Below the pieces are notes generated by a model. That model did not search any database. It was given only the letters and a program-made list of their open reading frames with translations, and was not told the origin of the DNA. A DNA stretch of 23,210 nt from a virus. The stretch lies in the IMG/VR virus record IMGVR_UViG_3300001847_000533, positions 1 through 23,210 of that record. One strand, 5' to 3'. The translations under genes and the position numbers were made by a program. Each line of letters starts with the position of its first letter. The stretch's first letter is position 1. Shown here piece by piece: positions 5,012 through 22,814 of the stretch.

Positions 5012-5036
5012 AAAAGCATATGTAATACATACTTTT
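5012..5036. terminator. Weak hairpin at the convergent junction
   Basis: Between two converging genes, the arms AAAAG/CTTTT and TATGT/ACATA pair around an AAT loop, with a two-base CA bulge on the left arm. T-rich bases follow in the + direction. It overlaps the stop codon of the - strand gene. It could act as a bidirectional terminator, but the stem is AT-rich and imperfect, so this is a tentative call. Confidence 0.35.
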
Positions 5037-5976: not shown

Positions 5977-5983
5977 ATTATCC

Positions 5984-8114: not shown

Positions 8115-8125
8115 AATATTTCCTT

Positions 8126-8290
8126 TCACACAAAACCATAGTACATTTCATTAATGCTTTGCAATATAAAATTTAGTTTATCAAATATCCACCCTATATC
8201 AGGTGTTTTTTCATGAAACCCAATCTTAGAGATTTTTATTTTCTCAGTGCTTCTTCTGATAGGGTTATTATAGATAGCTGTGTATCTCAT
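8126..8290 (-). pseudogene. Remnant of a second prolyl-hydroxylase-like 2OG-Fe(II) oxygenase (54 codons)
   Basis: Reading the - strand from the ATG at 8290 gives a 54-residue peptide beginning MRYTAIYNNPIRRST and ending NEMYYGFV. Residues 1-15 align with residues 1-15 of the intact oxygenase at 5984-6595 (MKYTTIYNDPIRRAT). Residues 16-54 align with its residues 59-97 (KIGFHEKTP versus NIGFHNRNP; FILQSINEM versus FILQSANEM). About 43 codons are missing in frame and the whole catalytic half (HxD, distal His, Arg) is gone, so it cannot be an oxygenase. It keeps a GGAG ribosome site and lies just after the divergent late promoter, so it is probably still translated as a leader peptide ahead of the Rieske gene. 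Divergence from the intact copy implies a separate paralogue and not a recent tandem copy. Confidence 0.8.
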
Positions 8291-8358: not shown

Positions 8359-9099
8359 ATGGCTATACCTACTACAAGAGATGGTTTTAAACAGCTTTGC
8401 TTAAGACAGCTGGGTGCACCGGTAATTGATATCAACGTATCTGAAGAGCAAGTAGATGACTGTGTTGATCTTGCTCTACGTTATTGGCAAGATTACCATA
8501 TGGATGGTACTGATAAGCAGTACTACAAATATAAGATTACTTCTCAAGACATCATTAACAAGTATATAACAATACCAGAAAATATCATTGGTGTTATTAA
8601 TCTCTTTCCTATTGGTGATGCTCTCAACACTGCTAATATGTTCTCTATTCGATATCAGATCGCATTGAATGATCTTTATACATTAACAAACGTATCTCTA
8701 GTACCATATTATATGGCGTTAACCCATGTCAGATTAATTGAAGAAATTCTTGTTGGTAAGCAGATGCTTCGATATAATAGACATATGAATAGATGTTATA
8801 TCGATATGGATTGGACAAAACTACAGACAGATTACTATTTAATTCTAGAATGCTATGGTGTTGTTGATCCAGATACATACCCTGATGTGTGGAAAGACTG
8901 GTGGATAACTCGTTACACAACTGCACTAATTAAGAAGCAGTGGGGAAATAATCTTAAAAAGTTCACAGGTATGATGCTACCAGGTGGTGTACAATTTAGC
9001 GGCCAGCAAATATATGATGAAGCAGTTCAAGAAATACAAGATCTAGAAGCTAATATGATAAACAGCTTTAGTCTTCCCGTGGCCGACCTCATAGGTTGA
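8359..9099 (+). CDS. gp13: Neck protein gp13 (head completion)
   Basis: This 246-residue protein fits T4 gp13, which with gp14 forms the neck collar closing the filled head and receiving the tail. Recognisable features are the N-terminal TRDGFKQLCLRQLGAPVIDINV with the following VDDCVDLALRYWQDYH helix, and a C-terminal LILECYGVVDPD..PDVWKDWW segment ending in an acidic helix. Order (first of 13-14-15-16-17-18) and size support the call. The divergent late promoter lies about 30 bases upstream. Its end is followed at once by a homing endonuclease gene, so the T4 adjacency of 13 and 14 is interrupted by five inserted genes. Confidence 0.9.
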   Translation: MAIPTTRDGFKQLCLRQLGAPVIDINVSEEQVDDCVDLALRYWQDYHMDGTDKQYYKYKITSQDIINKYITIPENIIGVINLFPIGDALNTANMFSIRYQIALNDLYTLTNVSLVPYYMALTHVRLIEEILVGKQMLRYNRHMNRCYIDMDWTKLQTDYYLILECYGVVDPDTYPDVWKDWWITRYTTALIKKQWGNNLKKFTGMMLPGGVQFSGQQIYDEAVQEIQDLEANMINSFSLPVADLIG

Positions 9100-9110
9100 A
9101 ACAAATAAAT

Positions 9111-9791
9111 ATGACTCAAGTTTATTGGATACATCTAGATGAACATAACGATATTAATTCTCAAGGGTATATTGGAGTGTCCAAAAATGCATTGAATAGA
9201 TTCAATGTTCATCTAAAGCATCTTAAAAACAATATTCATGAAAATATTCATTTGTCCCGTGCATATGATAAATATAAAAATATTTTATTAACAATTATAT
9301 TTGAAGGTTCGCTAGAAGAATGTTATAATTTAGAACATGAATTAAGACCTTATAAAGATATAGGGTGGAATATAGCTCAAGGGGGAGGTGCACCCCCTAT
9401 TAATTATGGCAATGAATGGAATAAAGGAAGAGTTTTTTCTGAAGAAATAATAAAAAAACGAGCTGATAAACATCGGGAAAGTATTAAAGAAAAATACGGT
9501 ATAATTAATGTTTCACAGTTATCTCATGTTAGATTAAAAAAATCTATTAAAATGAAAAAAAGGTATTTTTCAGATGATCATAAAAATAGAATAAGCTTGA
9601 ACAGAAAAGGTAAAGGTACAGGCTCAAATAATGCTATGGCAAGTGAGGAAAATAGAAAAAAAGTTTCATTATCAAAAATAGGTAGAGTAGCCTTATACAA
9701 AGATGGTAAAAGAAAAATGGCTAAACCTGGTACAACATTATTTGAAGATTTGCAACAACAAGGGTATTTATTAAAACATGCTAACGTTTAA
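9111..9791 (+). CDS. GIY-YIG homing endonuclease with NUMOD3-like repeats
   Basis: The GIY-YIG core is VYWIHL (residues 4-9) and GYIGVS (19-24), with Arg30 and Glu75 (NLEHELRPY) as candidate catalytic residues and a GGG turn (NIAQGGGAPP). The C-terminal half is basic and has NUMOD3-like DNA-binding motifs, such as GKGTGSNNAMASEENR and KVSLSKIGR. Free-standing endonucleases of this kind (Seg type in T4) cut recipient phage DNA and spread themselves by repair. The frame is open back to a TTG at 9096 inside the gp13 stop, but the ATG at 9111 is the likelier start. The 3' end overlaps the next gene by 14 bases. It is inserted between gp13 and a row of small packaged-protein candidates. Confidence 0.88.
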   Translation: MTQVYWIHLDEHNDINSQGYIGVSKNALNRFNVHLKHLKNNIHENIHLSRAYDKYKNILLTIIFEGSLEECYNLEHELRPYKDIGWNIAQGGGAPPINYGNEWNKGRVFSEEIIKKRADKHRESIKEKYGIINVSQLSHVRLKKSIKMKKRYFSDDHKNRISLNRKGKGTGSNNAMASEENRKKVSLSKIGRVALYKDGKRKMAKPGTTLFEDLQQQGYLLKHANV

Positions 9792-10059
9792 TCAGTTTAT
9801 CAAAGAAGAAGCTTGGCAACGAAAAAAATATAAAAATCCCAAAGGGGGTTTAACAGGTGCTGGTGTTATGGCCTATAGAAGAGAACACCCAAGATCTAAA
9901 CTACAGACAGCTGTAACAGAGAAAAATCCATCTGGTAAAAGAGCAGCCAGGAGACGTTCTTTCTGTGCTAGAATGAAAGGTGTAAAAGGACCTATGAGAG
10001 ATAGTAAAGGTAGACCTACAAGAAAAGCTCTTGCATTACGTAGATGGAGATGCCATTAA
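9778..10059 (+). CDS. Highly basic candidate internal head protein with capsid-targeting tag
   Basis: A 93-residue protein starting MLTFNQFIKE, which matches the T4-type capsid-targeting sequence and ends at a possible gp21 protease site (I-K-E). The rest is strongly basic, with KNPKGGLTGAGVMAYRRE, KRAARRRSFCARMKG and a final RRWRC. This KGGLT...SFCAR...RRRW..C layout recurs in small T4-like and other phage proteins that I associate with DUF6321 (name from memory). High Arg/Lys content suits DNA binding inside the capsid, as for T4 internal proteins. The start lies inside the homing endonuclease gene and has only a weak ribosome site. Function is inferred, not shown. Confidence 0.75.
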   Translation: MLTFNQFIKEEAWQRKKYKNPKGGLTGAGVMAYRREHPRSKLQTAVTEKNPSGKRAARRRSFCARMKGVKGPMRDSKGRPTRKALALRRWRCH

Positions 10060-10382
10060 TGAATGAACTAGTTAAGCTTATACTTGAAAAGCATAAAAGA
10101 GGTCTATGGGATAATATCCATGCTAAACAAGAACGTATTAAGCGTGGTTCATCTGAACATATGAGAAAGCCTGGTGAAAAAGGAAGACCAACTAAAGCTG
10201 ATTTTAAACAATCACAAGAGACATCAAAAATACATGAAGCAGAACTGACAGTTCCGTTAAGCACAGCAGGTAAAAGAACAGTAGTATCTGAATTACAAAC
10301 TGTAGTTATATCTGACGTTAAAGGTAAAATAGAAAAACATCCACCTGGAAAAAGTGGATCATCAGGTGGAGGGGATGAATAA
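10059..10382 (+). CDS. Small basic protein with IHAK...RKPG motif, candidate internal protein
   Basis: I take the ATG overlapping the upstream stop (TAATG at 10057-10061), which has GGAG nine bases upstream; the frame is open five codons further. The 107-residue product starts MNELVKLILE, giving an (L/I)xE cleavage-like site, followed by LWDNIHAKQERIKRG and MRKPGEKGRPTK. The LWDNIHAK...RKPG..G.PT block is a recurring short module in phage proteins of unknown function. The middle has a beta-rich segment (VVSELQTVVISDVKG) and the tail is Gly/Ser-rich. It lies in the row of tagged proteins between gp13 and gp14 and ends immediately before the next ATG. No enzyme motif seen. Confidence 0.7.
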   Translation: MNELVKLILEKHKRGLWDNIHAKQERIKRGSSEHMRKPGEKGRPTKADFKQSQETSKIHEAELTVPLSTAGKRTVVSELQTVVISDVKGKIEKHPPGKSGSSGGGDE

Positions 10383-10697
10383 ATGTTAAGATTTAAAGAA
10401 TTTATAGAAGAAGGTAAACTTATTGATAAAATAAAAAATTTTGCTATAAAAGCAGGGGAACATTCTCCTGCAGTAGCTAGTAATGTATTTACAACAACTA
10501 TGGGAGCAACGGCTGGATTGGTAGCAGGAGATCCTGATTTATCTAAAAATCCTATTGCAGCTGCAGCATTAGGTGCATTAGGTGAACATTTAATTAAAGA
10601 TAGAATTAAAAGTGTTTTTAAACCTAAAAAACCTAAAAAACCTAATAATATAAAAGAAGCTAAATCACCCAAAAGTTCAAGCGATAAAGGTGATTAA
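10383..10697 (+). CDS. Tagged small protein with Gly/Ala-rich segment and Lys-Pro repeats
   Basis: The 104-residue product starts MLRFKEFIEE, a good capsid-targeting tag with an I-E-E cleavage-like site. After a short amphipathic helix come a Gly/Ala/Thr-rich stretch (TTTMGATAGLVAGD) and IAAAALGALGEHLI, possibly membrane-active. The next segment is basic with tandem KPK units (FKPKKPKKPNN), encoded by nearly identical 9-base repeats at 10619-10645, then a charged tail. This could be a packaged protein acting on the membrane or DNA at ejection, but that is speculation from composition. The start follows the upstream stop by two bases, and the end overlaps the next ATG (TAATG). Confidence 0.7.
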   Translation: MLRFKEFIEEGKLIDKIKNFAIKAGEHSPAVASNVFTTTMGATAGLVAGDPDLSKNPIAAAALGALGEHLIKDRIKSVFKPKKPKKPNNIKEAKSPKSSSDKGD

Positions 10698-10729
10698 TGA
10701 AATCATTTAAGCAAATACTCAACGAAATT
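10697..10729 (+). repeat. Tag-coding repeat copy 1
   Basis: The first 33 bases of this gene match those at 13435-13467 at about 27 of 33 positions. They encode MKSFKQILNEI. Confidence 0.65.
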
Positions 10730-10882
10730 AATGATAATCCTGACCCTACAGATGTAGTAAAAGAATATGTACGTTTAAAAAATAAATCTAATCGAGACGA
10801 AATGGAAGAAAGTAAATTTATAATTCTTTCTAAACACCCCGCAGTAACCGCAGTAAAAAGAATGAAGGTAGATGGTAACTAA
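10697..10882 (+). CDS. Tagged 61-residue protein, candidate internal head protein
   Basis: It begins MKSFKQILNE, almost the same tag as the genes at 13435 and 14086 (MKTFKQILKE), and the tag ends in L-N-E, a gp21-type site. Only about 51 residues remain after the tag, mostly charged (DPTDVVKEYVRLKNKSN, then SKHPAVTAVKRMKVDG). The start overlaps the previous stop (TAATG), and the end overlaps the gp14 start by 11 bases, so it is embedded in the neck operon. No known domain is recognised. The shared tag and correct spacing are the reasons to believe a gene this small. Confidence 0.7.
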   Translation: MKSFKQILNEINDNPDPTDVVKEYVRLKNKSNRDEMEESKFIILSKHPAVTAVKRMKVDGN

Positions 10883-11612
10883 CGTTTTTTTTCAAAATTA
10901 TGGTCAAACATCTGAACAAGAGTTATTGGAAGATCTTGTTATTGAATCAATACGTACATACGGGCAAGATATGTATTACCTCCCTCGTAAACGTAATAGC
11001 TTTGATGGTATTTACTATGAAGATAGTCAATCATCGTATGATATAGCTTATATGATTGAAGTCTATATGAAATCATATAATGGATTTATGGGGCAAGATT
11101 CATTCATGTCAAAGTTTGGTCTTGAAGTAAGAGACCAGTTTGTGTTTTCTATTGCAAGAAGATCATTTAGTCTGGAAATAACTAATCCACAGCCAGAGAT
11201 ACTAAGACCTAGAGAAGGTGATTTACTTTATTTTCCTCTTAACAGAAAGACATTTGAGATACGATTTGTTGATAACAAACCTTTCTTCTATCAGTTAGGT
11301 GAATTGCAGATGTATGATATTACATGCGAGCTATTTGAATACTCTAACGAGAAGTTCAATACAGGTATTGAAGAAATCGATCAGCTTCAATCTAAACTAT
11401 CATTTAACGTTATTGATTACTCTGTTAAAAACGAGCAGGGGGAACCTATCAAGACAGAAGATGGGGATTATATCATCAGAGATAAATTTGATCAAAATCA
11501 ACAAGAGTTTGATCCAATACAGGATAACGAACGCATACAGAAGGAAGTTGATGATAATAGCTATATTGACTGGTCAGAGACTAATCCTTTTGGAGAAAGA
11601 AGTAGATACTAA
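10872..11612 (+). CDS. gp14: Neck protein gp14 (head completion)
   Basis: The 246-residue protein fits T4 gp14, partner of gp13 in the neck. The N-terminus has TNVFFQNYGQTSEQELLEDL, then IESIRTYGQDMYYLPRK, both typical of the family; the middle has FEIRFVDNKPFFYQLG; and the C-terminus is an acidic tail ending NPFGERSRY. Size and order agree. The ATG lies within the preceding small gene, with a GAAGG ribosome site just upstream. Its TAA overlaps the next ATG (TAATG), so gp14 is coupled to a tagged accessory gene and not directly to gp15 as in T4. Confidence 0.9.
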   Translation: MVTNVFFQNYGQTSEQELLEDLVIESIRTYGQDMYYLPRKRNSFDGIYYEDSQSSYDIAYMIEVYMKSYNGFMGQDSFMSKFGLEVRDQFVFSIARRSFSLEITNPQPEILRPREGDLLYFPLNRKTFEIRFVDNKPFFYQLGELQMYDITCELFEYSNEKFNTGIEEIDQLQSKLSFNVIDYSVKNEQGEPIKTEDGDYIIRDKFDQNQQEFDPIQDNERIQKEVDDNSYIDWSETNPFGERSRY

Positions 11613-12250
11613 TGATAGAAAAACATAAAATACTGATAAATGAAGTTCTTCGTAATAATATTGGTAAATCTACACCTGATTCTGGGTCTAATGCATTACC
11701 ACCATCTAAGCTAGATTTAAAGGGTGATCATAAAGGGTATAAATTTAACCATAAACATGGTGATTATGATGTGTACCATAATATAAAAGGGTATAATAAA
11801 TCAACATTCTTATATGTACACCCTAAAACAAATGAGATTCATTACACTGTAAAAGGTAATGTTAGAAAGTTACTAAACGGTATGCATGTAATGAATAATT
11901 TATATATGGGACCAAAACGACCAGAATTTACTAGTAATGCAGCTGATGCTTATCATGATATACTTAAAAAAACTCATGTAGATATGTTAGTTGCTGATAA
12001 TCATTCTTTTGGTGCTTCTAAAGTTTGGTATAAAATGTCTAATGATCCTAGGTTTCACGTGTATGCTTGGAATCCTACTGATTGGGATACTGGTACAGCA
12101 CATCAACTACATACACCTGAATATAATCTTGGACCTAAAGGCGGTAATGTAACTGTAGGCCGGGACGATGAATCAAGAATGCCTGGTAAGATGGAAAAAA
12201 GAGGCCCTATTGAGCTAGTAGCAATGTTAAACAAACGTAAGAGAAAATAA
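11612..12250 (+). CDS. Unknown 212-residue protein between gp14 and gp15, possible internal protein
   Basis: The N-terminus MIEKHKILINE ends in I-N-E, a looser version of the tag seen in neighbouring genes. The body is soluble and aromatic, with FNHKHGDYDVYHNIKGYN, a beta-rich FLYVHPKTNEIHYTVKG, and DMLVADNHSFGASKVWYKM leading into HVYAWNPTDWD. The last motif, Ser/Gly before a VW helix, vaguely recalls acetyltransferase-like folds in phage polyproteins, but I cannot assign it. The C-terminus is very basic (MLNKRKRK). It overlaps gp14 upstream and ends on the gp15 ATG (TAATG). It is an insertion relative to T4, where 14 and 15 are adjacent. Confidence 0.7.
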   Translation: MIEKHKILINEVLRNNIGKSTPDSGSNALPPSKLDLKGDHKGYKFNHKHGDYDVYHNIKGYNKSTFLYVHPKTNEIHYTVKGNVRKLLNGMHVMNNLYMGPKRPEFTSNAADAYHDILKKTHVDMLVADNHSFGASKVWYKMSNDPRFHVYAWNPTDWDTGTAHQLHTPEYNLGPKGGNVTVGRDDESRMPGKMEKRGPIELVAMLNKRKRK

Positions 12251-13062
12251 TGTTAGGTAATTCACCATTCTATTTCTCAACTATACGTAAGATGGTTGTA
12301 GTTCTAGGAAACCTCTTCAACGAAACTTATATCACAAGAACTGATTCTGAAGGTAATGTAGCTCAGCTTATCAAAGTACCTCTAGTATATGCATCCAAGA
12401 ACAAGATGCTAGTACGCGTAGATGAAGACCCTGAGATTCAGAGATTAACTGCCATAACTTTACCTAGAATGTCGTTTGAGATGACTGGTCTTGAGTATGA
12501 TGGTTCAAGAAAACTTAATACTGTTGGTAGAAACGTGGTTAAAGATACTACTAATGCTAATAAGCTAAAGCAACAATACAATCCTGTACCATATAACTTT
12601 AATTTCAATCTATACATATACGTTAAAAATGCTGAAGACGGTACTAAAATAGTAGAACAGATATTACCATTCTTCACACCTGACTGGACAGTATCTGTTA
12701 ATTTAATACCAGAGATGAACGAAACAAAAGATATACCTATAGTACTTACTAGTGTTCAACAGGAAGATCACTATGATGGAGATTTTCTAGAAAGAAGAGC
12801 TATTGTATGGACGTTACAGTTTACCATGAAAGGTTATATGTATGGTCCAGTTGCCCATAAACCAATTATTAAAGTATCAAAAACACAATTCTATGTAGAC
12901 ACCTCAAATGATATTATAGGAACAATTAGAGTACAGCCTGGCTTATTATCTAATGGTTCTCCTACTACTAATAGCCAGCTATCAGTAAACACTTCAATTA
13001 TTGAGGTTGATGATGATTATGGTTTTTGCGTTGATACGATAGGGAGTGTAATGTTATCATGA
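12250..13062 (+). CDS. gp15: Tail sheath stabiliser / tail terminator gp15
   Basis: The 270-residue protein fits T4 gp15, the hexameric cap that ends the tail tube and sheath and joins the tail to the neck. Diagnostic stretches are NSPFYFSTIRKMVVVLGNLFN at the start, VYASKNKMLVRVDEDPE, then ITLPRMSFEMTGLEYD and a PVPYNFNFNLYIYVKN strand, followed by VEQILPFFTPDWTVS. All are in the expected order. The product is full length. Its start overlaps the upstream stop (TAATG) and its end overlaps the gp16 start (ATGA), so gp15 and gp16 are translationally coupled. Confidence 0.92.
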   Translation: MLGNSPFYFSTIRKMVVVLGNLFNETYITRTDSEGNVAQLIKVPLVYASKNKMLVRVDEDPEIQRLTAITLPRMSFEMTGLEYDGSRKLNTVGRNVVKDTTNANKLKQQYNPVPYNFNFNLYIYVKNAEDGTKIVEQILPFFTPDWTVSVNLIPEMNETKDIPIVLTSVQQEDHYDGDFLERRAIVWTLQFTMKGYMYGPVAHKPIIKVSKTQFYVDTSNDIIGTIRVQPGLLSNGSPTTNSQLSVNTSIIEVDDDYGFCVDTIGSVMLS

Positions 13063-13448
13063 CAGATGAAATTGCGAAAGCTCTAGACTTAACTCCGTTA
13101 GTACCTGATAAAAAAGAAATTAGATCTATCAAAGGGGCTAATGAATATGAGACAGCTAAAGGTAATATGGAGCAGATTCTTGATGTAGGTCAGCAAGCTG
13201 TTGGAGAATTATATGAGCTTGCTAAATTATCTCAAGACCCTAGGGTTTATAGAGTATTTACAGAATTAATTTCTGCAATGACTACAGCAAATAAAGAGCT
13301 GATGGAAATTAAGAAAGTGGACACAGAAGTTAAAGAGATAGAAAGAGTTAAAGATCAACCTCAGACAATTAATCAAAATCTATTTGTTGGTTCAACAGCG
13401 GAGCTAAGCAAATTTATAGAAGGAATAAAGAAAAATGAAAACATTTAA
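13059..13448 (+). CDS. gp16: Terminase small subunit gp16
   Basis: A 129-residue, helix-rich protein between gp15 and gp17, matching T4 gp16, which forms ring oligomers that regulate DNA packaging by the large terminase. The central part (AKGNMEQILDVGQQAVGEL, then VYRVFTELISAMTTANKELM) is the coiled-coil oligomerisation region typical of the family. The tail (TINQNLFVGSTAELSKFI) resembles marine T4-like small terminases. It is slightly shorter than T4 gp16. The 3' end overlaps by 14 bases the start of the tagged gene at 13435, and two tagged genes separate it from gp17, unlike T4. Confidence 0.9.
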   Translation: MTDEIAKALDLTPLVPDKKEIRSIKGANEYETAKGNMEQILDVGQQAVGELYELAKLSQDPRVYRVFTELISAMTTANKELMEIKKVDTEVKEIERVKDQPQTINQNLFVGSTAELSKFIEGIKKNENI

Positions 13449-13467
13449 GCAAATATTAAAAGAATTA
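13435..13467 (+). repeat. Tag-coding repeat copy 2
   Basis: These 33 bases differ from 14086-14118 at only two positions (codon 3 wobble and last base), while the rest of the two genes is unrelated. This is a short conserved 5' module. Confidence 0.8.
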
Positions 13468-14082
13468 GCCACAACAGACGGTGGCTATAAGGGGCCTCCT
13501 AAAACTCCTGGAGCTAATAAAAAAGGAGGAGGTGGTAATAACCCACTTTCACACGAACAAGCTGTAAAAGCTCTTATAACACATTTTGAAAAAATGCATG
13601 GTGTACGCCCAGATAAAATTTCAAGTTCAGGTGAAGGACCAACACGTACTACTATTATAAGCCATAGTAGTATGCCTCATGTTGAAATGTCAGTAAACGG
13701 GGGCCCTATAGATCCTGTTTTGCTACATAGCATAGGTGGGAAACATGAAAGGCTAAGGGCAGAGGAAACTAGTGTACCTGGTTTGTTTAGAGTTGCACCT
13801 GATTTGCTACATAATCACGAAATGGAAAAAATGAATAAACAGGAAACAGCTGACCTTGAAAAACTTCATAGTCCAAATGAATTAGCTGCTAAACGTCATC
13901 CTGATCCATTAAAAGGTGCTGTTGTATTAACCCATCATCCTGATCATCCTGAATCAGAATATCAAATAGTACATACTACAGGGCATAATTTCCCAGTTAA
14001 AGCTTCATCTCACGGTGAAGCGAAAAAAATATTTGACAATTATATGGATACATTATATCGTCGCTACAGTGGGGGGCGATAA
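13435..14082 (+). CDS. Candidate internal head protein with MKTFKQILKE tag, 215 aa
   Basis: The tag MKTFKQILKE is identical in protein to that of the next gene and ends in a gp21-like L-K-E site. The following linker is Gly/Pro/Lys-rich (GPPKTPGANKKGGGG), as expected for an exposed processing region. The body has several His-rich stretches (LLHSIGG; LLHNHEMEKM; LTHHPDHPESEYQ) and a C-terminal part EAKKIFDNYMDTLYRRY. No enzyme domain is recognised. It starts inside gp16 with AAGGAATAAAG upstream, and ends three bases before the next tagged gene. Together with the next gene it forms a pair inserted between the two terminase subunits. Confidence 0.75.
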   Translation: MKTFKQILKELATTDGGYKGPPKTPGANKKGGGGNNPLSHEQAVKALITHFEKMHGVRPDKISSSGEGPTRTTIISHSSMPHVEMSVNGGPIDPVLLHSIGGKHERLRAEETSVPGLFRVAPDLLHNHEMEKMNKQETADLEKLHSPNELAAKRHPDPLKGAVVLTHHPDHPESEYQIVHTTGHNFPVKASSHGEAKKIFDNYMDTLYRRYSGGR

Positions 14083-14085
14083 AAA

Positions 14086-14118
14086 ATGAAAACGTTTAAG
14101 CAAATATTAAAAGAATTT
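14086..14118 (+). repeat. Tag-coding repeat copy 3
   Basis: Near-identical to 13435-13467 (31 of 33 bases) and encodes the same MKTFKQILKE. Identity stops at the predicted protease site. Confidence 0.8.
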
Positions 14119-14649
14119 ACACCACCAGAAGAAGAAGATGGTGGTGATCATAACCATGGTTACACATTAGGACCGATGACACATTTATATTTACATAATA
14201 TTGAAGGTGAAAAAACAGGACATATAGGATTCATGACAACACCTGAAGGTCATGCTGTTTCTGTACATCATAATAAATCAGGTCAAGAACATGGTAATCC
14301 TATGACTCACGCACCTGATGATGATATGGATGAACCTGTTGGAGGGCACACAACAGTTCATTCTGTTTTCAGAAACGGTAAACATATTGGAAATTTATAT
14401 GTCCATTATAATCATTATTATGGACATGGTATGACATTTGTAGGAAATAAAGAAGGAAACCATCCTAGAGAAACTGCCGATATGAGACCTTCTTTAAAAT
14501 CAATGAAAGAATATAGAAAAAACTGGTCAGTTGATGACGAAATGAAAGACATTAACCCTACTGATAAAAAATCATTGTCAAGATTGGCTGAGGCTCATAG
14601 ATCAATGGCAGAACAAAATTTTTCATCCTTGATTAAGAAAATGTATTGA
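14086..14649 (+). CDS. His-rich candidate internal head protein with MKTFKQILKE tag, 187 aa
   Basis: The tag is the same decapeptide as in the previous gene, followed by an acidic Pro/Glu linker (FTPPEEEDGGDHNHG). The body is unusually rich in histidine, about 18 of 187 residues by my count, in patterns such as VSVHHNKSGQEHG and YVHYNHYYGHG, often alternating in beta strands. That suggests metal binding, but no known metal-site motif is seen. The C-terminal 50 residues are helical and charged (LSRLAEAHRSMAEQN). The DNA encoding the tag is almost identical to that at 13435, which suggests the tag region was copied or recombined while the body was replaced. It precedes gp17. Confidence 0.75.
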   Translation: MKTFKQILKEFTPPEEEDGGDHNHGYTLGPMTHLYLHNIEGEKTGHIGFMTTPEGHAVSVHHNKSGQEHGNPMTHAPDDDMDEPVGGHTTVHSVFRNGKHIGNLYVHYNHYYGHGMTFVGNKEGNHPRETADMRPSLKSMKEYRKNWSVDDEMKDINPTDKKSLSRLAEAHRSMAEQNFSSLIKKMY

Positions 14650-14683
14650 TTTAAAAGGTTGTTGTAACGCGTGGCAAGAATAA

Positions 14684-16321
14684 ATGGATTTTAAAGGTTA
14701 TAACGGTAACCCTAACCTTAAAAAGGTTAATACCAAGATTGAATGGACTCCTGATCTAGTCAAAGAATATATTAAATGTAAAGAAGATATAATATATTTT
14801 GTTGAAACTTACATGAAAATTGTTCATGTTGATAAGGGATTAATCAATTTTAAATTATACAGTTATCAAAGACAAATGCTTAAAGATATGCAAGAACATA
14901 GATTTAATGCATTTTGTCTTTCGAGACAGTCTGGTAAATCAATAACCGTTAGTGCATTTATTTTGTGGTTTATTATATTTAATAATGAAAAGGAAGTTGG
15001 TATTCTAGCTAACAAAGGTGATACAGCAAGAGAAATTCTTGGTAGGATTCAACTAGCGTATCAACACTTACCTAAATGGTTGACTCACGGGATTACAATT
15101 TGGAATAAAGGATCTTTTGAGTTAGAAAATAAATCTAAAGTAATAGCAGCTGCAACCTCATCTGATAACGTTCGCGGTCATACTTTTGCACTCGTATATT
15201 TGGATGAGGTTGCTTTCGTAGAAAATTATAATGAATTCTTTGCATCAGTTTTTCCTACTATATCTTCCGGACAAACTACTAAAATAATTATGACAAGTAC
15301 TCCTAATGGTTTAAACCATTTCTACCAAACTATAACAATGGGTTTAAATAAACAAAATAATTTTAATGTTCGAGTAGTTCCGTGGCATCAAGTCCCAGGT
15401 CGAGATGAAAATTGGAAAGAACAAACGCTAAAAGCATTAAACCATGATCAAGCTAAATTTGCTCAAGAATTTAATGTAGAATTTTTAGGTTCGTCAGGTA
15501 CACTTATTGCAGGCTGGAAATTACAAGAACTTGTACCTCAGATAGCTATTAATGAAAAGCAAGGTATCGTTCAGTATGAGAAACCTAACAAAGGTAGAAC
15601 ATATTGTGGTGTAGCTGACGTTTCTAGAGGTAAAGGTCTTGACTACTCTGCATTACAAATAATTGATGTAACAGAGATGCCATACAAGCAAGTGTGTGTA
15701 TTTCGTGATAATATGACTACACCAGGTGATTTTGCTGAGATTATTAATAGACTAGGAAGACAGTATAATAGCTGTCCTATTCTTGTAGAAGTAAATGATA
15801 TCGGGCAACAAACAGCAGAAACATTATATTTTGATTATGAATATGAATCAATGCTATTTACTGAATCAGCTGGTAAAGCTGGTAAGCGTATTACAACAGG
15901 AGCATCTAAACCAGGATCAGTAGATAGAGGTATTAGAACAACAAAGACAGTAAAAAATGTAGGTTGCTCAATGTTAAAGTTACTTATTGAGCAGAACCAG
16001 CTAATTATCAATGACTATAACACAATACATGAACTATCTACATTCTCTAAGAAAAATAATACATATGAAGCAGAACCAGGTAATAACGATGACTTGGTAA
16101 TGTGTTTAGTATTGTTTGCATGGTTAACAGAACAAAAATATTTTAAAGACTTGACAGATATTAATACATTGTTAATGCTCAAAGAAAAAAATGAAGAGCA
16201 GCTATATAATGATCTACTTCCTTTTGGATTTATTGATGATGGTATAGGTCAAGATCCTACACCTGATTCTAACGGTGATAAATGGTATGATGTTGATCAA
16301 AACTCCTTTTTCTATAAATAA
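14684..16321 (+). CDS. gp17: Terminase large subunit gp17 (packaging ATPase and nuclease)
   Basis: This is the DNA-packaging motor. Walker A is SRQSGKS at residues 80-86, Walker B with the catalytic Glu is VYLDE at 171-175, and the coupling motif is TSTPNG at 204-209. The C-terminal RNase H-like nuclease shows D312 (GVADVSRG), D320 (GLDYSAL), an acidic VEVNDIG strand and a NNDDLVM segment as metal ligands. The length of 545 residues is normal for marine T4-like phages, with no intein or intron. The 34 bases upstream hold no clear late promoter and only a weak purine-rich site, so it probably relies on read-through from the gp13-gp16 operon. Its stop codon overlaps the gp18 promoter. Confidence 0.97.
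   Translation: MDFKGYNGNPNLKKVNTKIEWTPDLVKEYIKCKEDIIYFVETYMKIVHVDKGLINFKLYSYQRQMLKDMQEHRFNAFCLSRQSGKSITVSAFILWFIIFNNEKEVGILANKGDTAREILGRIQLAYQHLPKWLTHGITIWNKGSFELENKSKVIAAATSSDNVRGHTFALVYLDEVAFVENYNEFFASVFPTISSGQTTKIIMTSTPNGLNHFYQTITMGLNKQNNFNVRVVPWHQVPGRDENWKEQTLKALNHDQAKFAQEFNVEFLGSSGTLIAGWKLQELVPQIAINEKQGIVQYEKPNKGRTYCGVADVSRGKGLDYSALQIIDVTEMPYKQVCVFRDNMTTPGDFAEIINRLGRQYNSCPILVEVNDIGQQTAETLYFDYEYESMLFTESAGKAGKRITTGASKPGSVDRGIRTTKTVKNVGCSMLKLLIEQNQLIINDYNTIHELSTFSKKNNTYEAEPGNNDDLVMCLVLFAWLTEQKYFKDLTDINTLLMLKEKNEEQLYNDLLPFGFIDDGIGQDPTPDSNGDKWYDVDQNSFFYK
16313..16320 (+). promoter_or_regulatory. Late promoter TATAAATA for gp18
   Basis: An exact T4 late-promoter octamer lies across the last codons and stop of gp17, 42 bases before the gp18 ATG. 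AAGGAG precedes that ATG. Placement and exact match make it convincing. Confidence 0.75.
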
Positions 16322-16362
16322 TCAATAATTAATAATAATAACAACTCTAAAAGGAGAATGAT

Positions 16363-18843
16363 ATGGTTAGTCTAGTTTCACCTGGTGTACTAGTTAAAGA
16401 AATTGATCTTACAACTATTGTTCCATCAGTTTCTACTACAGAAGGTGCTATTGGTGGTGTATTTCGTTGGGGTCCAGTAGGTCAAAGAGTTCTTGTTGAT
16501 TCAGAAACAAATCTAGTAACAAGATTTGGTAAGCCAACAAACCTTAACCCTGAAACATTCTTTACTGCAGCTTCATTCTTAAGCTATGGTAATAGATTAT
16601 TTATATCTCGTGCTGCTAATACAACTGGTGTATCACCACAAGTAACATGTACAGTTCAAGCAGGTAACTCTACAGTTGTTCTTTCAGCAGGTAACACTTC
16701 AACACTCCATGCAGGTTATACAGCTATTGGGTCATCAAATAGCGGTGTTCTAACTGGTGCAACTATTCAGGCTATTGTTAACTCTACAGCATTTACACTT
16801 GCTAGCGGTTCACAAGCTTTAGCTAATACAACATCAGATGTAGTTCAGTTTATTTCAAATACTGCCTTCACAGCTTTTGCTAACACTGTAGCAGTTGCTA
16901 ATATTGAAACACTTATTGTTAAGAATGAAACTGATTTTACACATAAAGATGGTACTTTTGATCCCAACGTACAGTTTATAGCAAGATACCCTGGTGCAAT
17001 CGGTAACTCTATTCGTGTGTCAGTTTGCGGTAACTCAACAGGTTATAGTTCAGTTATTAACCTACAATCTTATGCATTAGGTGCTTATATACCTATAACA
17101 GTAAATTCAAACACTGCAACTGCAACAATATATGGTAGCAATGCTGCAGTAGTATCAGCTAATGTTCTTCAATTTAAGCAAGATCTTAACGTAACTGATA
17201 GAATTGAAGTAGGTAATACACTAATTGGTACAGAATATCTTAAAGTTACTGCTATTGGTGATGCTACAGTATATGGCAACGTTTCAGCTACAGTTGTTAT
17301 TACAACAATAGCTGGCAATAACGTTGTTATTGCTAATACAACAGTAGGTCTTAATAATGGTATGCTTGTAGATAACTCTACAGCATTCTTAGATGTAAAG
17401 CCTAGAATTACAACAATTGTTAACTCTACAGCATTTACAGTATCATCTGTTGCTGATGCTAACGTAACAACAAGCAGCACTACTGTATATCCTAGAGCTG
17501 TATTTACAATTAACTTTGAAGAACCATATAAGCTTGGTGCTAATCTAGTTTATCAGGGTTCCAATACCCAGACACAAAATATAACTCGTTACTGGGAATT
17601 CTTTAACTTAGTAGATACTGCACCTGGTCAATCAGAGTATGTTATCAATTTTGGTAACTCTGCTATTAACTCAGACGAAATGCACGTTGTAGTTGTTGAT
17701 GATGGTGGTAAGTTTACAGGTGTACCTGGAGAAATTCTAGAAGTGTACCGCGGTGTATCACGTGCTACTGATGCAAAAACAGTAGATGGTGGTGCAAATT
17801 ACTGGAGAACAGTAATCAATGATATGTCTCAGTACATCTATGCTGTTAACGATATATCAGGAGCAGCTTCTGCTACTGCATTAAATCTTACTGACTCTAC
17901 TCTCGATGATGTTTCATTAACTCTAATGAACGGTAATGATGGACATGATGAAACAAATATTGAGCTTGGATGTGTACTAAATGCATACGATATGTTCAAG
18001 TCAAAAGAAGAAGTTGATATTTCACTTGTTCTACAAGGCAAGGCACGTTCATTCGTTCTAGCTAATTATCTAATCGATAATATTGCTGAACCTCGTATGG
18101 ATTGTATCGTTCTTGCTTCACCTCAGAAAGGTGACGTTGTTAATAACGTTGGTAACGAGGCAGATGCAGTAGTTCTATTCCGTGAAAATCTTCGTTCATC
18201 ATCTTACGGTGTGCTTGACTCAGGTTATAAGTATATGTACGACCGCTACAATGACATTTATCGCTGGGTACCTTTAAATGGTGATACAGCAGGTCTTTGT
18301 GTGCGTACAGATTATACTAACGATGCTTGGTGGTCACCTGCAGGATTTAACCGTGGACAAATTAGAAACATTGTTAAGCTTGCATTTAATCCAAGACAAG
18401 CAGAGCGTGATACTCTATATAAAGCTGGTGTAAACCCAGTAGTTACATTCCCTGGTCAAGGTACAATCCTTTACGGTGATAAGACACTACTATCTAAACC
18501 ATCAGCATTTGATCGTATCAACGTACGTAGATTGTTCATTGTTCTTGAGAAAGCTATTAGTAAGGCAGCTCAGTATACTCTATTCGAGTTCAACGATGCA
18601 TTTACTCGTGCTCAGTTCAAGAACCTTGTAGTTCCATATCTACGTGATATCCAGGGTCGTAGAGGTGTTACAGACTTCTTAGTAGTATGTGATGAAACAA
18701 ATAATACCCCAGAAATTATTGATAGAAATGAGTTCGTAGGCGATATTTACATTAAACCAGCTCGTTCTATTAACTTCATTACTCTAAACTTCGTTGCTGT
18801 TAGAACTGGTGTAGCCTTTAGCGAGGTCGTGGGCAAATTCTAA
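16363..18843 (+). CDS. gp18: Contractile tail sheath protein gp18 with large beta-rich insertion, 826 aa
   Basis: N-terminal SLVSPGVLVKEIDLTTIVP and GAIGGVFRWGPVG are hallmark sheath sequences. The C-terminal part has GLCVRTDYTNDAWWSPAGFNRG, then INVRRLFIVLEKAI and FLVVCDETNNTPEIIDRNEF, the conserved core that forms the contractile lattice. At 826 residues it is much longer than T4 gp18 (about 660). The excess lies between roughly residues 100 and 390 and is Thr/Val/Asn/Ser/Ala-rich, with two repeat units sharing IVNSTAFT. These resemble Ig-like or other surface beta modules that decorate the sheath outside. It has its own late promoter and ribosome site, and is followed by a hairpin, so it may form a single-gene late transcript of high abundance. 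Confidence 0.97.
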   Translation: MVSLVSPGVLVKEIDLTTIVPSVSTTEGAIGGVFRWGPVGQRVLVDSETNLVTRFGKPTNLNPETFFTAASFLSYGNRLFISRAANTTGVSPQVTCTVQAGNSTVVLSAGNTSTLHAGYTAIGSSNSGVLTGATIQAIVNSTAFTLASGSQALANTTSDVVQFISNTAFTAFANTVAVANIETLIVKNETDFTHKDGTFDPNVQFIARYPGAIGNSIRVSVCGNSTGYSSVINLQSYALGAYIPITVNSNTATATIYGSNAAVVSANVLQFKQDLNVTDRIEVGNTLIGTEYLKVTAIGDATVYGNVSATVVITTIAGNNVVIANTTVGLNNGMLVDNSTAFLDVKPRITTIVNSTAFTVSSVADANVTTSSTTVYPRAVFTINFEEPYKLGANLVYQGSNTQTQNITRYWEFFNLVDTAPGQSEYVINFGNSAINSDEMHVVVVDDGGKFTGVPGEILEVYRGVSRATDAKTVDGGANYWRTVINDMSQYIYAVNDISGAASATALNLTDSTLDDVSLTLMNGNDGHDETNIELGCVLNAYDMFKSKEEVDISLVLQGKARSFVLANYLIDNIAEPRMDCIVLASPQKGDVVNNVGNEADAVVLFRENLRSSSYGVLDSGYKYMYDRYNDIYRWVPLNGDTAGLCVRTDYTNDAWWSPAGFNRGQIRNIVKLAFNPRQAERDTLYKAGVNPVVTFPGQGTILYGDKTLLSKPSAFDRINVRRLFIVLEKAISKAAQYTLFEFNDAFTRAQFKNLVVPYLRDIQGRRGVTDFLVVCDETNNTPEIIDRNEFVGDIYIKPARSINFITLNFVAVRTGVAFSEVVGKF
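16774..16797 (+). repeat. 24-bp direct repeat in gp18 insertion, copy 1
   Basis: Identical to 17416-17439 and encoding IVNSTAFT in both copies. It marks the duplicated beta module inside the sheath protein. Confidence 0.9.
17416..17439 (+). repeat. 24-bp direct repeat in gp18 insertion, copy 2
   Basis: Second exact copy, in the same reading frame. A shorter related stretch (AACTCTACAGCATT, encoding NSTAF) is also present about 40 bases upstream. Confidence 0.9.
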
Positions 18844-18854
18844 TAAAATAAAAA

Positions 18855-18880
18855 ATAGGAGAGTGGCAACACTCTCCTAT
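18855..18880. terminator. Perfect 11-bp hairpin with GCAA tetraloop after gp18
   Basis: The arms ATAGGAGAGTG and CACTCTCCTAT pair perfectly around a GCAA (GNRA) loop, starting 11 bases after the gp18 stop. On the + strand there is no T-tract after it; on the - strand it is followed by TTTTTATTTTATT. It may therefore be a 3' stabiliser or processing structure for gp18 mRNA, and a classical Rho-independent terminator only for antisense transcription. Confidence 0.7.
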
Positions 18881-18887
18881 GCAACGA

Positions 18888-18895
18888 TATAAATA
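18888..18895 (+). promoter_or_regulatory. Late promoter TATAAATA for gp19
   Basis: An exact late-promoter octamer seven bases after the hairpin and 21 bases before the gp19 ATG, which has an AAGGAG site. It gives tube protein its own late transcript. Confidence 0.72.
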
Positions 18896-18916
18896 AAAAT
18901 AAAAAGGAGTAAATTA

Positions 18917-19555
18917 ATGCCATTTAATATACATGATTTCAAATCTAAAGGACTTGCTCTTAATGGTGCGAGACCATCACTATTTAGTGTTGATATTCCT
19001 CAGGGGTGGCCTCATATGAATGGTTCAAATAGCCAAGTACCATATATGGCTAAGGCATCATCATTACCTCAATCTACTATTAATGAAGTTGAAGTAGGTT
19101 ATTTTGGTAGAAAAATTAAATTGGCAGGTGACCGTACTTATGCTAACTGGGCTTGTACATTTTATAATGATGAAAGTTTTTCTATTAGAAATGGTATGTT
19201 GAACTGGCATCAATTTATAAATTCTACTGTACCTAATTTAATGGAAGGGTCTGCACCAGCTTCACCTGAAAGTTATAAGAGTGATATTACTATTACACAG
19301 TGGAGTAAAGCTGGTAAAGAAAATGTTGGAACAGCTTTATTTAACTGTACATTAATAGGAGCATTCCCTGTTATTGTTGGACCTATTACATTAGATTGGG
19401 ATGCTACAAATCAAATTGAAATGTTTGATGTAGAGTTTGCATATGATTACTGGATTGCAGGTAAAACATTTCCTAATTCTGGGCAACTTAACACTGTACC
19501 CAACTACTTAGAAACTGCTGCTACAGTTCCAAGTACTCTTAGCATCTCTCAATAA
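18917..19555 (+). CDS. gp19: Tail tube protein gp19
   Basis: The 212-residue protein has tail-tube features of T4-like phages: KSKGLALNGARPSLFSVDIP at the start, PYMAKASSLPQSTINEVEV, YFGRKIKLAGDRTYANW, and a closing WDATNQIEMFDVEFAYDYW. gp19 polymerises on the baseplate into the DNA conduit inside the sheath. It is longer than T4 gp19 (163 residues), as is usual for marine relatives. Its own late promoter and strong AAGGAG site fit high expression. A short gap follows before gp20. Confidence 0.95.
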   Translation: MPFNIHDFKSKGLALNGARPSLFSVDIPQGWPHMNGSNSQVPYMAKASSLPQSTINEVEVGYFGRKIKLAGDRTYANWACTFYNDESFSIRNGMLNWHQFINSTVPNLMEGSAPASPESYKSDITITQWSKAGKENVGTALFNCTLIGAFPVIVGPITLDWDATNQIEMFDVEFAYDYWIAGKTFPNSGQLNTVPNYLETAATVPSTLSISQ

Positions 19556-19581
19556 TAATTTTTATATGAAAGATATACATA

Positions 19582-21147
19582 ATGAGTGATAATCAAGGTT
19601 GGTCGTTATTTGGATTTCAGATTAAGCGTAGGCCTCAACCTGATTCCATACGATCGTTTACTCCTGAAATAAAAGATGACGGTGCAGTTGTTGTAGCAGC
19701 TGGTGGTACATTTGGACAATATATCGATCTTGACGGTACAGTTAGAACTGAAGCCGAACTGGTTGCAAAGTACAGAGAAATGGCTTTGCAACCAGAAATC
19801 GATAGAGCTGTTAATGAAGTGGTTAACGAAGCTATTGTTGTTGAAGAAGGTGAACATACAATTGAAATTGTGCTAGATGATCTTGAAATTGATGATAAAA
19901 TTAAACAAATCATTGAGCAAGAGTTTAACGGTATTCTAGACCTTCTAGATTTTCAAAATCAAGCATATGATATATTTCGTAAATGGTATGTAGAAGGTAG
20001 ACAATATTTCCATGCTGTAATTGATGAGAAGAGACCTGAAGAAGGTCTAAAAGAACTTCGTTATGTTGATCCTCGTAAGATTAGAAAAATACGAGAGGTA
20101 CAAAAAACAAAAGATAGAAATACTGAAGCTGTAATACAGAAGACAAAAAGCGAGTATTATATCTATAACGAAAAAGGTCTAAATTACGGTTCTAAGGTTA
20201 TATCAAATCTAGGAACAACTGGTGTTAAAATTCATGCTGATTCAATTATCCATGTAACATCAGGATTAACAGATCAAAACGGTTTAATGGGACTTTCATA
20301 TCTTCATTCAGCCATTAAACCACTAAATCAGCTTAGAGCTCTAGAAGATTCAGCAATTATATATCACTTATCAAGAGCCCCTGAACGTAGAATTTTCTAT
20401 ATCGATATCGGTAATCTTCCTAAAATTAAAGCTGAGCAGTATTTACGTGATATGATGGCTAAGTATAAAAACCGTCTATCATATGATGCTCAGACTGGTG
20501 AGATACGCGATGATCGTAAATTTATGACAATGCTAGAAGATTATTGGCTACCAAGACGTGAAGGTGGTCGAGGAACTGAAATATCAGTTCTTTCAGGTGG
20601 TACAGCTCTTCCACAGCTATTGCAATCAGTAGAGTACTTTGAAGATAGATTATATAAAGCTCTGCAGGTACCTATCACCAGATTAAAACCAGATACTGTA
20701 TACTCAATTGGCAGAGCTACTGAAATTACTAGAGATGAAGTTAACTTCTCTAAGTTTATCGATAGAATTCGTAACAAGTTTTCTCAGTTATTCCTAAAAG
20801 CTCTTGAAAAGCAAGTTATTCTCAAGCGTATTGCATCACCAGAAGATTGGGATGCTATAAAAGGTAAAGTAAAGTTTAGATATCTTCGCGATAATTACTT
20901 TGCAGAGCTTAAAGAGATGGAAATCTTTACAGATAGAATGAATAGAGTTCAGCTAGCTGAACCATTTGCTGGTAAATACATTTCACATACATGGATTCGT
21001 AAGAATATTCTTAAACAAACTGATGAAGAAATTGAGCTTATGGATGAACAAATTAGAATTGATATGCAAAATCCATTGTATAATCAAGATTTAATTATGC
21101 AAGCTCAACAAGCTCAAGCAGAAGCAGAAGCTAATAGAAAGAGGTAA
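19582..21147 (+). CDS. gp20: Portal protein gp20
   Basis: The 521-residue protein matches T4 gp20, the dodecameric portal at which prohead assembly starts and through which DNA is packaged. Typical parts are YREMALQPEIDRAVNEVVNE near residues 64-83, KWYVEGRQYFHAVID, LRYVDPRKIRKIR, LEDSAIIYHLSRAPERRIF, and the tunnel-region LEDYWLPRREGGRGTEI with SVEYFEDRLYKAL. The C-terminus is Gln/Ala-rich (MQAQQAQAEAEANRKR), forming a helix. No promoter consensus is visible in the 26 bases before it, so it is probably read from the gp19 promoter. The prohead-core gene follows after three bases. Confidence 0.97.
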   Translation: MSDNQGWSLFGFQIKRRPQPDSIRSFTPEIKDDGAVVVAAGGTFGQYIDLDGTVRTEAELVAKYREMALQPEIDRAVNEVVNEAIVVEEGEHTIEIVLDDLEIDDKIKQIIEQEFNGILDLLDFQNQAYDIFRKWYVEGRQYFHAVIDEKRPEEGLKELRYVDPRKIRKIREVQKTKDRNTEAVIQKTKSEYYIYNEKGLNYGSKVISNLGTTGVKIHADSIIHVTSGLTDQNGLMGLSYLHSAIKPLNQLRALEDSAIIYHLSRAPERRIFYIDIGNLPKIKAEQYLRDMMAKYKNRLSYDAQTGEIRDDRKFMTMLEDYWLPRREGGRGTEISVLSGGTALPQLLQSVEYFEDRLYKALQVPITRLKPDTVYSIGRATEITRDEVNFSKFIDRIRNKFSQLFLKALEKQVILKRIASPEDWDAIKGKVKFRYLRDNYFAELKEMEIFTDRMNRVQLAEPFAGKYISHTWIRKNILKQTDEEIELMDEQIRIDMQNPLYNQDLIMQAQQAQAEAEANRKR

Positions 21148-21150
21148 ACA

Positions 21151-21390
21151 ATGGTAGATACAGTGAATTTAATTCAACACGCTGTTAATGATAGTCCTAC
21201 TCAGATGCAGGATGACCTAAATACTTTAATGCTAGATAAAATTAAAAATATCATTGATCAGAAAAGAGTAGAAGTAGCTCAAAATTTCTTTAATTATGAT
21301 GAACCTGAAGATAATGAAGAAGATTTAGAAGACTACTCTGATCAGGAAGAATATGAAGAACCAGAAGAAGTAGAATATCAAGAGGATTAA
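21151..21390 (+). CDS. gp67: Prohead core protein gp67 (PIP), acidic
   Basis: The 79-residue protein has a helical first half (LNTLMLDKIKNIIDQKRVEV, then AQNFFNYDEPED) and an extremely acidic second half made of Glu/Asp with Tyr. This matches T4 gp67, the small scaffold-core protein located between gp20 and gp68 that is cut to internal peptides by gp21. Position directly after the portal gene and size agree. The acidic tail may neutralise basic internal proteins during prohead assembly. It ends one base before the next gene's ATG. Confidence 0.85.
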   Translation: MVDTVNLIQHAVNDSPTQMQDDLNTLMLDKIKNIIDQKRVEVAQNFFNYDEPEDNEEDLEDYSDQEEYEEPEEVEYQED

Positions 21391-21391
21391 G

Positions 21392-22141
21392 ATGACCAAG
21401 TATCTTAAAGATATTATTAAAGAGTGTAGTGATTATACTACTCCTAAAGCTCCAGCTGATAGAGACTTTGTAGATATGCATTTAAATAATATTGAGAAGA
21501 TTGATCCTCTAGATCAAAAAGCTAAAGAAGGTAATGATGCAGTATTTACAGGTTCAAATGTAAATACTTATGATCGTAATATAAACAAGTATGGATATAA
21601 CCATTCTGAAGACTGGCAGCATTATGATAATTTTAGAGCTTGGAGAGATGGTCAACTTGCAGCTCTAAAACACCATTCTACTGGTGAAGACATGGAATCT
21701 CCTTACGATGAAGATTCTGCTAATCATAAAGACTGGATGATGGGATATACATCTGTTAATAGAATGTATGAAGATTATTCAGAGCATAGTGATATTCAAG
21801 ATGAACATGAAATGGTTCGTACCGAATTGAGAGCAATAGCTGATAAAGCAACTCATCTATTAAACCATATGCCAATGGGTATGCATATTGAACCATGGGT
21901 ACAATCAAAAATTGCCAATGCTAAGATGGAAGTTTCAGGTGTACATGATTATTTAATTTACGGTGATCATGCTAATAAACCAACAAATGAAGAAACAATC
22001 GAAGAGAAATTAAAACATTCTCAAGGTATGGGTGAATGGATTAAAGATTTTGAGCAATCAGATGATCCTAAGTTTGAAGGTAAATCTAAATCTAAAAGAA
22101 GACAAATGGCTATAGCAGCTTTTATGTCATCTAAGAAATAA
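21392..22141 (+). CDS. Tagged protein in gp68 position, 249 aa
   Basis: It stands where T4 has gp68 (prohead core, 141 residues) but is much longer and shows no clear match to it. The N-terminus MTKYLKDIIKE ends in I-K-E, again a capsid-targeting and gp21-site pattern. There are three blocks: FRAWRDGQLAALKHHSTGED (helical), ADKATHLLNHMPMGMHIEPW with VQSKIANAKMEVSGVHDYL, and a C-terminal WIKDFEQSDDPKFEGKSK followed by SKRRQMAIAAF. The last two blocks recur in marine phage virion-linked proteins from memory. It could be a core protein, an internal protein, or both. It precedes the protease gene by 10 bases. Confidence 0.7.
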   Translation: MTKYLKDIIKECSDYTTPKAPADRDFVDMHLNNIEKIDPLDQKAKEGNDAVFTGSNVNTYDRNINKYGYNHSEDWQHYDNFRAWRDGQLAALKHHSTGEDMESPYDEDSANHKDWMMGYTSVNRMYEDYSEHSDIQDEHEMVRTELRAIADKATHLLNHMPMGMHIEPWVQSKIANAKMEVSGVHDYLIYGDHANKPTNEETIEEKLKHSQGMGEWIKDFEQSDDPKFEGKSKSKRRQMAIAAFMSSKK

Positions 22142-22151
22142 GAGTTAACAA

Positions 22152-22814
22152 ATGAAACTTATTCAAGAATTACAAGAAGACGTTAAGCCAATTACAGAGG
22201 CTTCTGAGTCAGGCAAAAAGAACCTTTACATCGAAGGTGTCTTTATGCAATATAATAATGATAGGTTTAACCAGCCTAATCGTAATGGCCGTCTGTATCC
22301 AGAATCTATCATGCGCGAAGAAGTTAATCGTTACAACAGCGAATGTGTAGATACTAAGCGCGCTTACGGTGAACTTAATCATCCACAGGGTCCTACAATT
22401 AATCTTGATCGTGTTTCCCATCTAATTGAGAAGCTTGAATTTCAGAGAGATGGTACTGTTTTAGGTCGTGCTAAGATTCTTGAAACTCCTATGGGTGCAA
22501 TTGTTAAAGGTTTAATTGAAGGTGGTGCAAGACCTGGTGTATCTTCTAGAGGTATGGGGTCTGTTAAGCAGGTTAATGAAGGTCTAATGGAAGTACAGAA
22601 TGACTTTCGTCTTGTAACAGCTGCTGATGTGGTTGCTGATCCTTCTGCTCAGAAGGCATTTGTTAACGGTATTTTTGAAAACGTTGACTGGCTCTATAAC
22701 GAAAAAACAGGTGAATGGGTTCAAGAACAAAAGAAAGTTCTTCGTAATATGTCTACTAGACAGATTGAAGAAAGCAAGTTGAGATTCTTTGAGAATTTCT
22801 TGAAGACATTATAA
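22152..22814 (+). CDS. gp21: Prohead maturation protease gp21
   Basis: The 220-residue protein is the T4-type prohead serine protease. H77 in YGELNHP and Ser131/132 in RPGVSSRG are the expected catalytic His and Ser, and FRLVTAADVVADPSAQKAF is the conserved strand-helix that follows. The N-terminus MKLIQELQE itself ends in an L-Q-E site, fitting self-processing. In T4, gp21 trims gp22, gp67, gp68, gp23, gp24 and the tagged internal proteins after (L/I)xE. Here it is the natural processor of the many tagged small proteins in this window. The stop codon overlaps a tandem late promoter. Confidence 0.95.
   Translation: MKLIQELQEDVKPITEASESGKKNLYIEGVFMQYNNDRFNQPNRNGRLYPESIMREEVNRYNSECVDTKRAYGELNHPQGPTINLDRVSHLIEKLEFQRDGTVLGRAKILETPMGAIVKGLIEGGARPGVSSRGMGSVKQVNEGLMEVQNDFRLVTAADVVADPSAQKAFVNGIFENVDWLYNEKTGEWVQEQKKVLRNMSTRQIEESKLRFFENFLKTL

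Follow-up and report, generated by a model that had tools for sequence, protein, structure and literature searches.

Probable T4-type capsid-targeting tags on internal-protein cassettes in the virion operon of a T4-like viral contig

The internal proteins of bacteriophage T4 share a ten-residue N-terminus, which reads MKTYQEFIAE in IPII and IPIII and begins MKTFKEF in IPI, and T4 proteins that begin in this way reside inside the head (PMC9026906). Mutagenesis of IPIII assigned targeting to residues 4 and 7 and processing to residues 8 and 10. The core protein gp67 and other core proteins are likewise substrates of gp21, the prohead protease (PMC9026906). The bodies of the internal proteins differ even among T-even phages. 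Alt, an injected ADP-ribosyltransferase, has an enzymatic body behind the similar N-terminus MELITELFDE. A comparable arrangement is described for the giant phage SPN3US, which belongs to a different phage group; two papers report ejection proteins that are packaged in the head, matured by the prohead protease and ejected (PMC5694885, PMC7411985). Enzymes have been found repeatedly in the virion proteomes of cyanophages, where they were left unexplained or ascribed to possible contamination (PMC10665884, PMC9602691). In the open-licence literature, the concept of a capsid-targeting sequence was found for T4, and no paper was found that applies it to cyanophage virion enzymes.

The window, which is the whole analysed stretch of 23,210 nucleotides, makes up the greater part of a 24.5-kb IMG/VR fragment, and its 29 genes were scored. 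It carries a T4-type virion operon in the order gp13, gp14, gp15, gp16, gp17, gp18, gp19, gp20, a gp67-like gene, the gene-68 slot and gp21, and the gene 3' of gp21 occupies the gp22 position. The first-pass annotation had stated that gp21 is encoded here, and the gene was confirmed (Table 1); its own N-terminus is MKLIQELQE. The eight N-termini quoted in that annotation are all present at the starts given, and the bodies behind them show no similarity to one another, as it had claimed. The locus resembles T4 in its ten-residue N-termini with the same key residues, in its unrelated bodies and in the presence of gp21 in the same genome. Unlike the T4 ip genes, which lie apart from the virion operon, the tagged genes of the window are interspersed among neck, terminase and portal genes, and their bodies are unrelated to the T4 internal proteins. 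All eight bodies were compared with Pfam and PHROG without a match to the T4 internal protein or Alt families, and no ADP-ribosyltransferase was recognised by Pfam among the tagged proteins of the window. Because internal protein bodies vary among T-even phages, this mismatch does not exclude the mechanism. A tagged protein of the ADP-ribosyltransferase family (ART-PolyVal) does occur in contig L212. Genes 21151 and 21392 fill the slots of the T4 prohead core proteins gp67 and gp68 between portal and gp21; 21392 is likened to gp68 by position and, unlike gp68, carries an IxE site at residue 11.

The tags of the window are probably T4-type capsid-targeting sequences, and the genes that carry them exchangeable cassettes for internal proteins. 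Residues 4 and 7, which are hydrophobic or aromatic, would dock the protein onto the assembling prohead core, and gp21 would cut after (I/L)xE at residue 10, leaving the mature body free inside the head and able to exit via the tail along with the DNA. Each tag and body would form a cassette placed between conserved virion genes, here gp13/gp14 and gp16/gp17, and recombination at the tag repeats would add or remove it. The bodies would be unrelated because the tag is the sole part that needs to be kept. We infer docking, cleavage, packaging, injection and body functions for the window's own proteins.

Table 1. Tagged genes, prohead genes and related features of the window and of other contigs.
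Feature	Position	Strand	Basis
Tagged gene MLTFNQFIKE; body DUF6321	9778..10059	+	Strict motif; Pfam PF19846, E=5.5e-22
Tagged gene MNELVKLILE; small basic module	10059..10382	+	Strict motif; phrog_16028, phrog_11180
Tagged gene MLRFKEFIEE	10383..10697	+	Strict motif; no family match (Pfam, PHROG)
Tagged gene MKSFKQILNE; short body without known relatives	10697..10882	+	Strict motif
Weak candidate MIEKHKILINE; E at residue 11	11612..12250	+	Fails strict motif
Tagged gene MKTFKQILKE	13435..14082	+	Strict motif; absent from sibling contig L292
651-bp cassette missing in L292	13444..14094	+	Both ends inside tag DNA
Tagged gene MKTFKQILKE	14086..14649	+	Strict motif; L292 homologue tagged MKTFKQILQE
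gp67-like prohead protein	21151..21390	+	phrog_1064 prohead, E=3.6e-5; position after portal
Gene-68 slot protein MTKYLKDIIKE; E at residue 11	21392..22141	+	Position; homologues in same slot in L003/L004
gp21 prohead protease	22152..22814	+	Pfam PF03420 (S77), E=1.8e-38; GELNHP and SSRG motifs kept
Multi-domain module proteins (other contigs)	L064, L065, L066, L068, L070, L072, L074, L081, L091, L113; L265 6285-8282		

The strict motif used for scoring, M..[FYLIVMW]..[FILVMY][ILVMF].E, was fixed from the published IPIII mutagenesis (PMC9026906). It is matched by six of the 29 window genes (9778, 10059, 10383, 10697, 13435 and 14086), all of which were on the earlier list, and by no other gene of the window. 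The background rate of the motif, taken at methionines inside T4, G003 and G005 proteins, is 7/3,018 (0.23%), which gives P=7e-11 for six of 29; with a deliberately generous rate of 2%, the result is still P=2e-5. None of 5,000 residue shuffles reached six matches, the maximum being two. A repeat finder that does not use the motif, run over 9700-14700, recovered the tag DNA as a set of scattered direct repeats, and the copies at 13435 and 14086 are one base apart over the ten tag codons and divergent beyond. The proposal of eight tagged genes stands for these six, while 11612 and 21392 are weaker cases because their E lies at residue 11, one later. The first-pass wording of a basic/polar and then an aromatic residue was loose; what the tags have in common is that positions 4 and 7 are hydrophobic or aromatic, with I or L at 8 and E at 10. 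Among the 280 called genes of T4, the strict motif picks out IPII, IPIII, Alt, gp24 and gp61.1. The N-terminus of IPI is MKTFKEF and that of gp61.1 is MKTFKEFIKE, so that MKTFK is identical letter for letter in T4 and the window. From its sequence, gp61.1 is predicted to be a T4 internal protein. The product of gene 61.1 (NC_000866 18966-19130), listed as hypothetical, is also similar to small tagged proteins of L147, L171 and G003. No strict match was found in G005, although the gene caller misplaces some starts.

The bodies of the tagged genes are diverse. That of 9778 is basic (net +22), and the module of 10059 elsewhere occurs fused to DUF6321. A pattern scan found no relatives of 11612 or 13435, and tblastn against phages found none of 11612. 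Single-sequence structure predictions of 11612 and 14086 reached pLDDT 34 and 36, and the models were useless. Protein 21392, in the gene-68 slot, more likely belongs to the prohead core than to any injected set. Other genes surround this set. Between gp13 and the first tagged gene, at 9096-9791, lies a GIY-YIG-like endonuclease gene (weak Pfam match), which is possibly a homing gene. Three proteins at 517-1557, 3067-3870 and 3867-5006 contain SGG(I/A/S)DS motifs, which are typical of PP-loop enzymes, and have no Pfam match; they adjoin a radical SAM protein (1532-3058). The minus strand at 5035-8129 encodes a TctC-like binding protein (weak), two 2OG-Fe(II) oxygenases and a Rieske protein. 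Late-promoter-like sites (TATAAATA) are not more frequent in the window than expected by chance.

The tag is not confined to the window. Viral contigs were scanned for DNA encoding MKTFK[QE]F only, with no E required, and at least 79 distinct, unrelated bodies were found behind it. Among the matches listed, E stands at residue 10 in 45 of 79 (P=2.5e-34, against 6% per position further in) and at residue 9 or 10 in 65 of 79 (P=3e-47), and the residue that most commonly follows E10 is A. A Pfam/NCBIfam search of 58 tagged proteins, comprising most of this set and seven picked by eye, identified SAM lyase, ADP-ribosyltransferase, cytidylyltransferase, thioredoxin reductase, RlpA-like and DUF6321 families. 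In L212, six consecutive tagged genes lie between gp18 and gp19. A thioredoxin-reductase-like protein with the tag MLDFTQFFSE is encoded between portal and gp21 in L006 (5541-6689). An HK97-type capsid protein with MKTFKQF in one viral contig (probably L201) was set aside as a likely chance match. The idea that the gp16-gp17 slot is always tagged was rejected because only 2 of 49 distinct genes in this slot of gp17 relatives carry the tag. The distribution of tags among relatives is patchy, and the cytidylyltransferase of P-HM2 is untagged. Cultured relatives that do carry tags include S-CREM2, DSL-LC02 and P-TIM40.

DUF6321, the body of 9778, is found in three settings: alone with the tag, inside multi-domain proteins and alone without the tag. 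A tag or an (I/L/V/M)xE-type site lies 5' of DUF6321 in all 14 contigs that carry T4 hallmarks versus 6 of 19 without (P=5e-5), where the contigs without hallmarks were of at least 20 kb and the table was compiled by hand, which puts this comparison below the motif tests in rigour. The six contigs that have a site and no hallmark may be T4-like fragments. DUF6321 is untagged in the podoviruses S-RIP1 and HTVC119P. The first form of this test, which accepted any T4 marker including gp17, gave 10 of 14 versus 8 of 44 (P=4e-4); contigs with gp17 only were then dropped because other phages share that terminase. DUF5661, DUF6321 and other small modules are also strung together in multi-domain proteins of T4-like contigs and of the cultured phage DSL-LC02, with (I/L/V/M)xE sites between them, some of which lie inside tag-like stretches (TLSQFMIE, TYDQFMIE). 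Their layout suggests that these may be polyproteins cut by gp21.

Virion proteomes of cultured cyanophages were compared with the motif, which had been set before the proteome was read. In S-CREM2, 52 ORFs were detected in CsCl-purified virions (Table 3 of PMC10665884). The strict motif occurs in 6 of its 219 proteins, and five of the six are in the virion proteome (Fisher P=0.003); without the T4-type structural genes, as classed by us, the value is P=3e-4. The five are ORF6 (SAM hydrolase), ORF13, ORF14 (APH/ChoK-like kinase), ORF136, which occupies the gp16-gp17 slot, and ORF154 (cytidylyltransferase). This proteome reports protein detection, without N-termini, and its authors note that enzymes in virions may be co-purified contaminants (PMC10665884). 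A relaxed motif with E at 8-12 and an aromatic residue was too loose, with 6 of 15 matches detected in S-CREM2 (P=0.11). The virion protein ORF12, annotated as Cas9, is missed by the motif from its annotated start, and near its N-terminus it contains LRFASFMAE followed by AA; similar stretches occur, at roughly this position, in neighbouring genes of S-B68, MA01 and S-CRM01. ORF12 (OR473000 7704-10313; L270) has no Pfam match, and its Cas9 annotation looks doubtful. The kinase of S-CRM01, cited as a virion protein, begins MISFDQFLSE, and its alignment with the S-CREM2 protein starts only at residue 22. In S-SZBM1, which has a shallower proteome with 30 proteins listed, none of four strict matches was detected; two of these are chance-like (annotated endonuclease V and RecA) and two are clear tags on small proteins. 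The cytidylyltransferase that was detected in S-SZBM1 has a tag one residue shorter, MRFRQFIIE. The claim of a capsid-targeting tag cleavable by gp21 finds good backing in the T4 IPI and gp61.1 N-termini, the E10 enrichment and the S-CREM2 proteome, and the S-SZBM1 proteome did not confirm it. One positive and one negative proteome, from relatives and not from the window's virus, are support and not proof.

The tagged proteins might be parts of the prohead core or scaffold, like T4 gp67, gp68 and gp22, which are destroyed or expelled at maturation and never reach the host. Protein 21392, which is acidic (net -15) and sits in the gene-68 slot, and 14086, also acidic (net -7), would fit this, as would the processing of T4 core proteins by gp21 (PMC9026906). 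However, there are enzymes among the other tagged bodies (SAM lyase, kinase, cytidylyltransferase, thioredoxin-reductase-like), several tagged bodies were recovered from mature S-CREM2 virions, and the cassette turnover between siblings would not be expected of scaffold parts. This explanation is unlikely for the set as a whole. The tag might instead be a docking signal for another virion site, such as the neck, tail or baseplate, and be retained uncleaved. Most tags of the window do lie among neck and tail-completion genes, and virion detection does not separate head from tail. Such a role is nonetheless very improbable, because the gp21 site, E10 with A as the commonest next residue, shows strong enrichment, the T4 proteins that share this N-terminus lie inside the head, and the DUF6321 boundary site tracks T4 hallmarks.

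The cassettes themselves turn over between close relatives. Identity between the sibling contig L292 and the window is 96.4% as far as 13443 and 94.2% from 14095 onwards, and L292 is without exactly gene 13435 (651 bp). In another pair, G2 and G1 differ by 575 bp, which correspond to one tagged gene and start at the tag. Recombination between tags, leading to gain or loss, is the simplest reading of these insertions or deletions. The 14086 body shows 25 nonsynonymous and 3 synonymous differences between window and sibling. Its dN/dS is about 2, which is not significantly above 1 (P=0.15), compared with 0.07 for gp16 (difference P=3e-6); recombination may distort the value for 14086 because dS differs between neighbouring genes. 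Positive selection on this body is suggestive only. Since both cassette differences break within tag DNA and the tags are DNA repeats, the repeat could be a DNA or mRNA element, that is, a recombination or translation-start signal with an incidental peptide. This is still less credible than a docking role elsewhere in the virion: tag copies in L212 differ synonymously while the peptide is kept, E10 is enriched though it lies outside the searched DNA pattern, and in S-CREM2 the peptide tag goes together with presence in the virion. A recombination role of the tag DNA can coexist with the peptide role. Single matches do occur by chance, as for two of the four in S-SZBM1. Chance likeness of AT-rich, lysine/hydrophobic N-termini is nonetheless the least probable account of all, since six of 29 compares with 0.07 to 0.6 expected and the tag stands on at least 79 bodies; chance is strongly disfavoured for the six strict cases and possible for 11612.

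Beyond the preferred reading of the window tags as capsid-targeting sequences, a broader claim has about an even chance of being right. It holds that a portable tag is common to marine and freshwater T4-like phages, that its DNA serves as the crossover point, and that head-packed effectors, among them anti-restriction SAM lyase, ADP-ribosyltransferases, NAD-pathway enzymes and kinases, are swapped tag-to-tag in the virion operon, with some phages making cargo polyproteins with internal gp21 sites. Exchange of this kind would explain the turnover of cargo amid fixed neighbouring virion genes. Should the tag prove to be a capsid-targeting sequence, it would offer an explanation for the enzymes in cyanophage virions. 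Many 'hypothetical proteins' of T4-like genomes would then become predicted first-contact effectors, and a sequence rule would predict which proteins such viruses carry into a new host cell.
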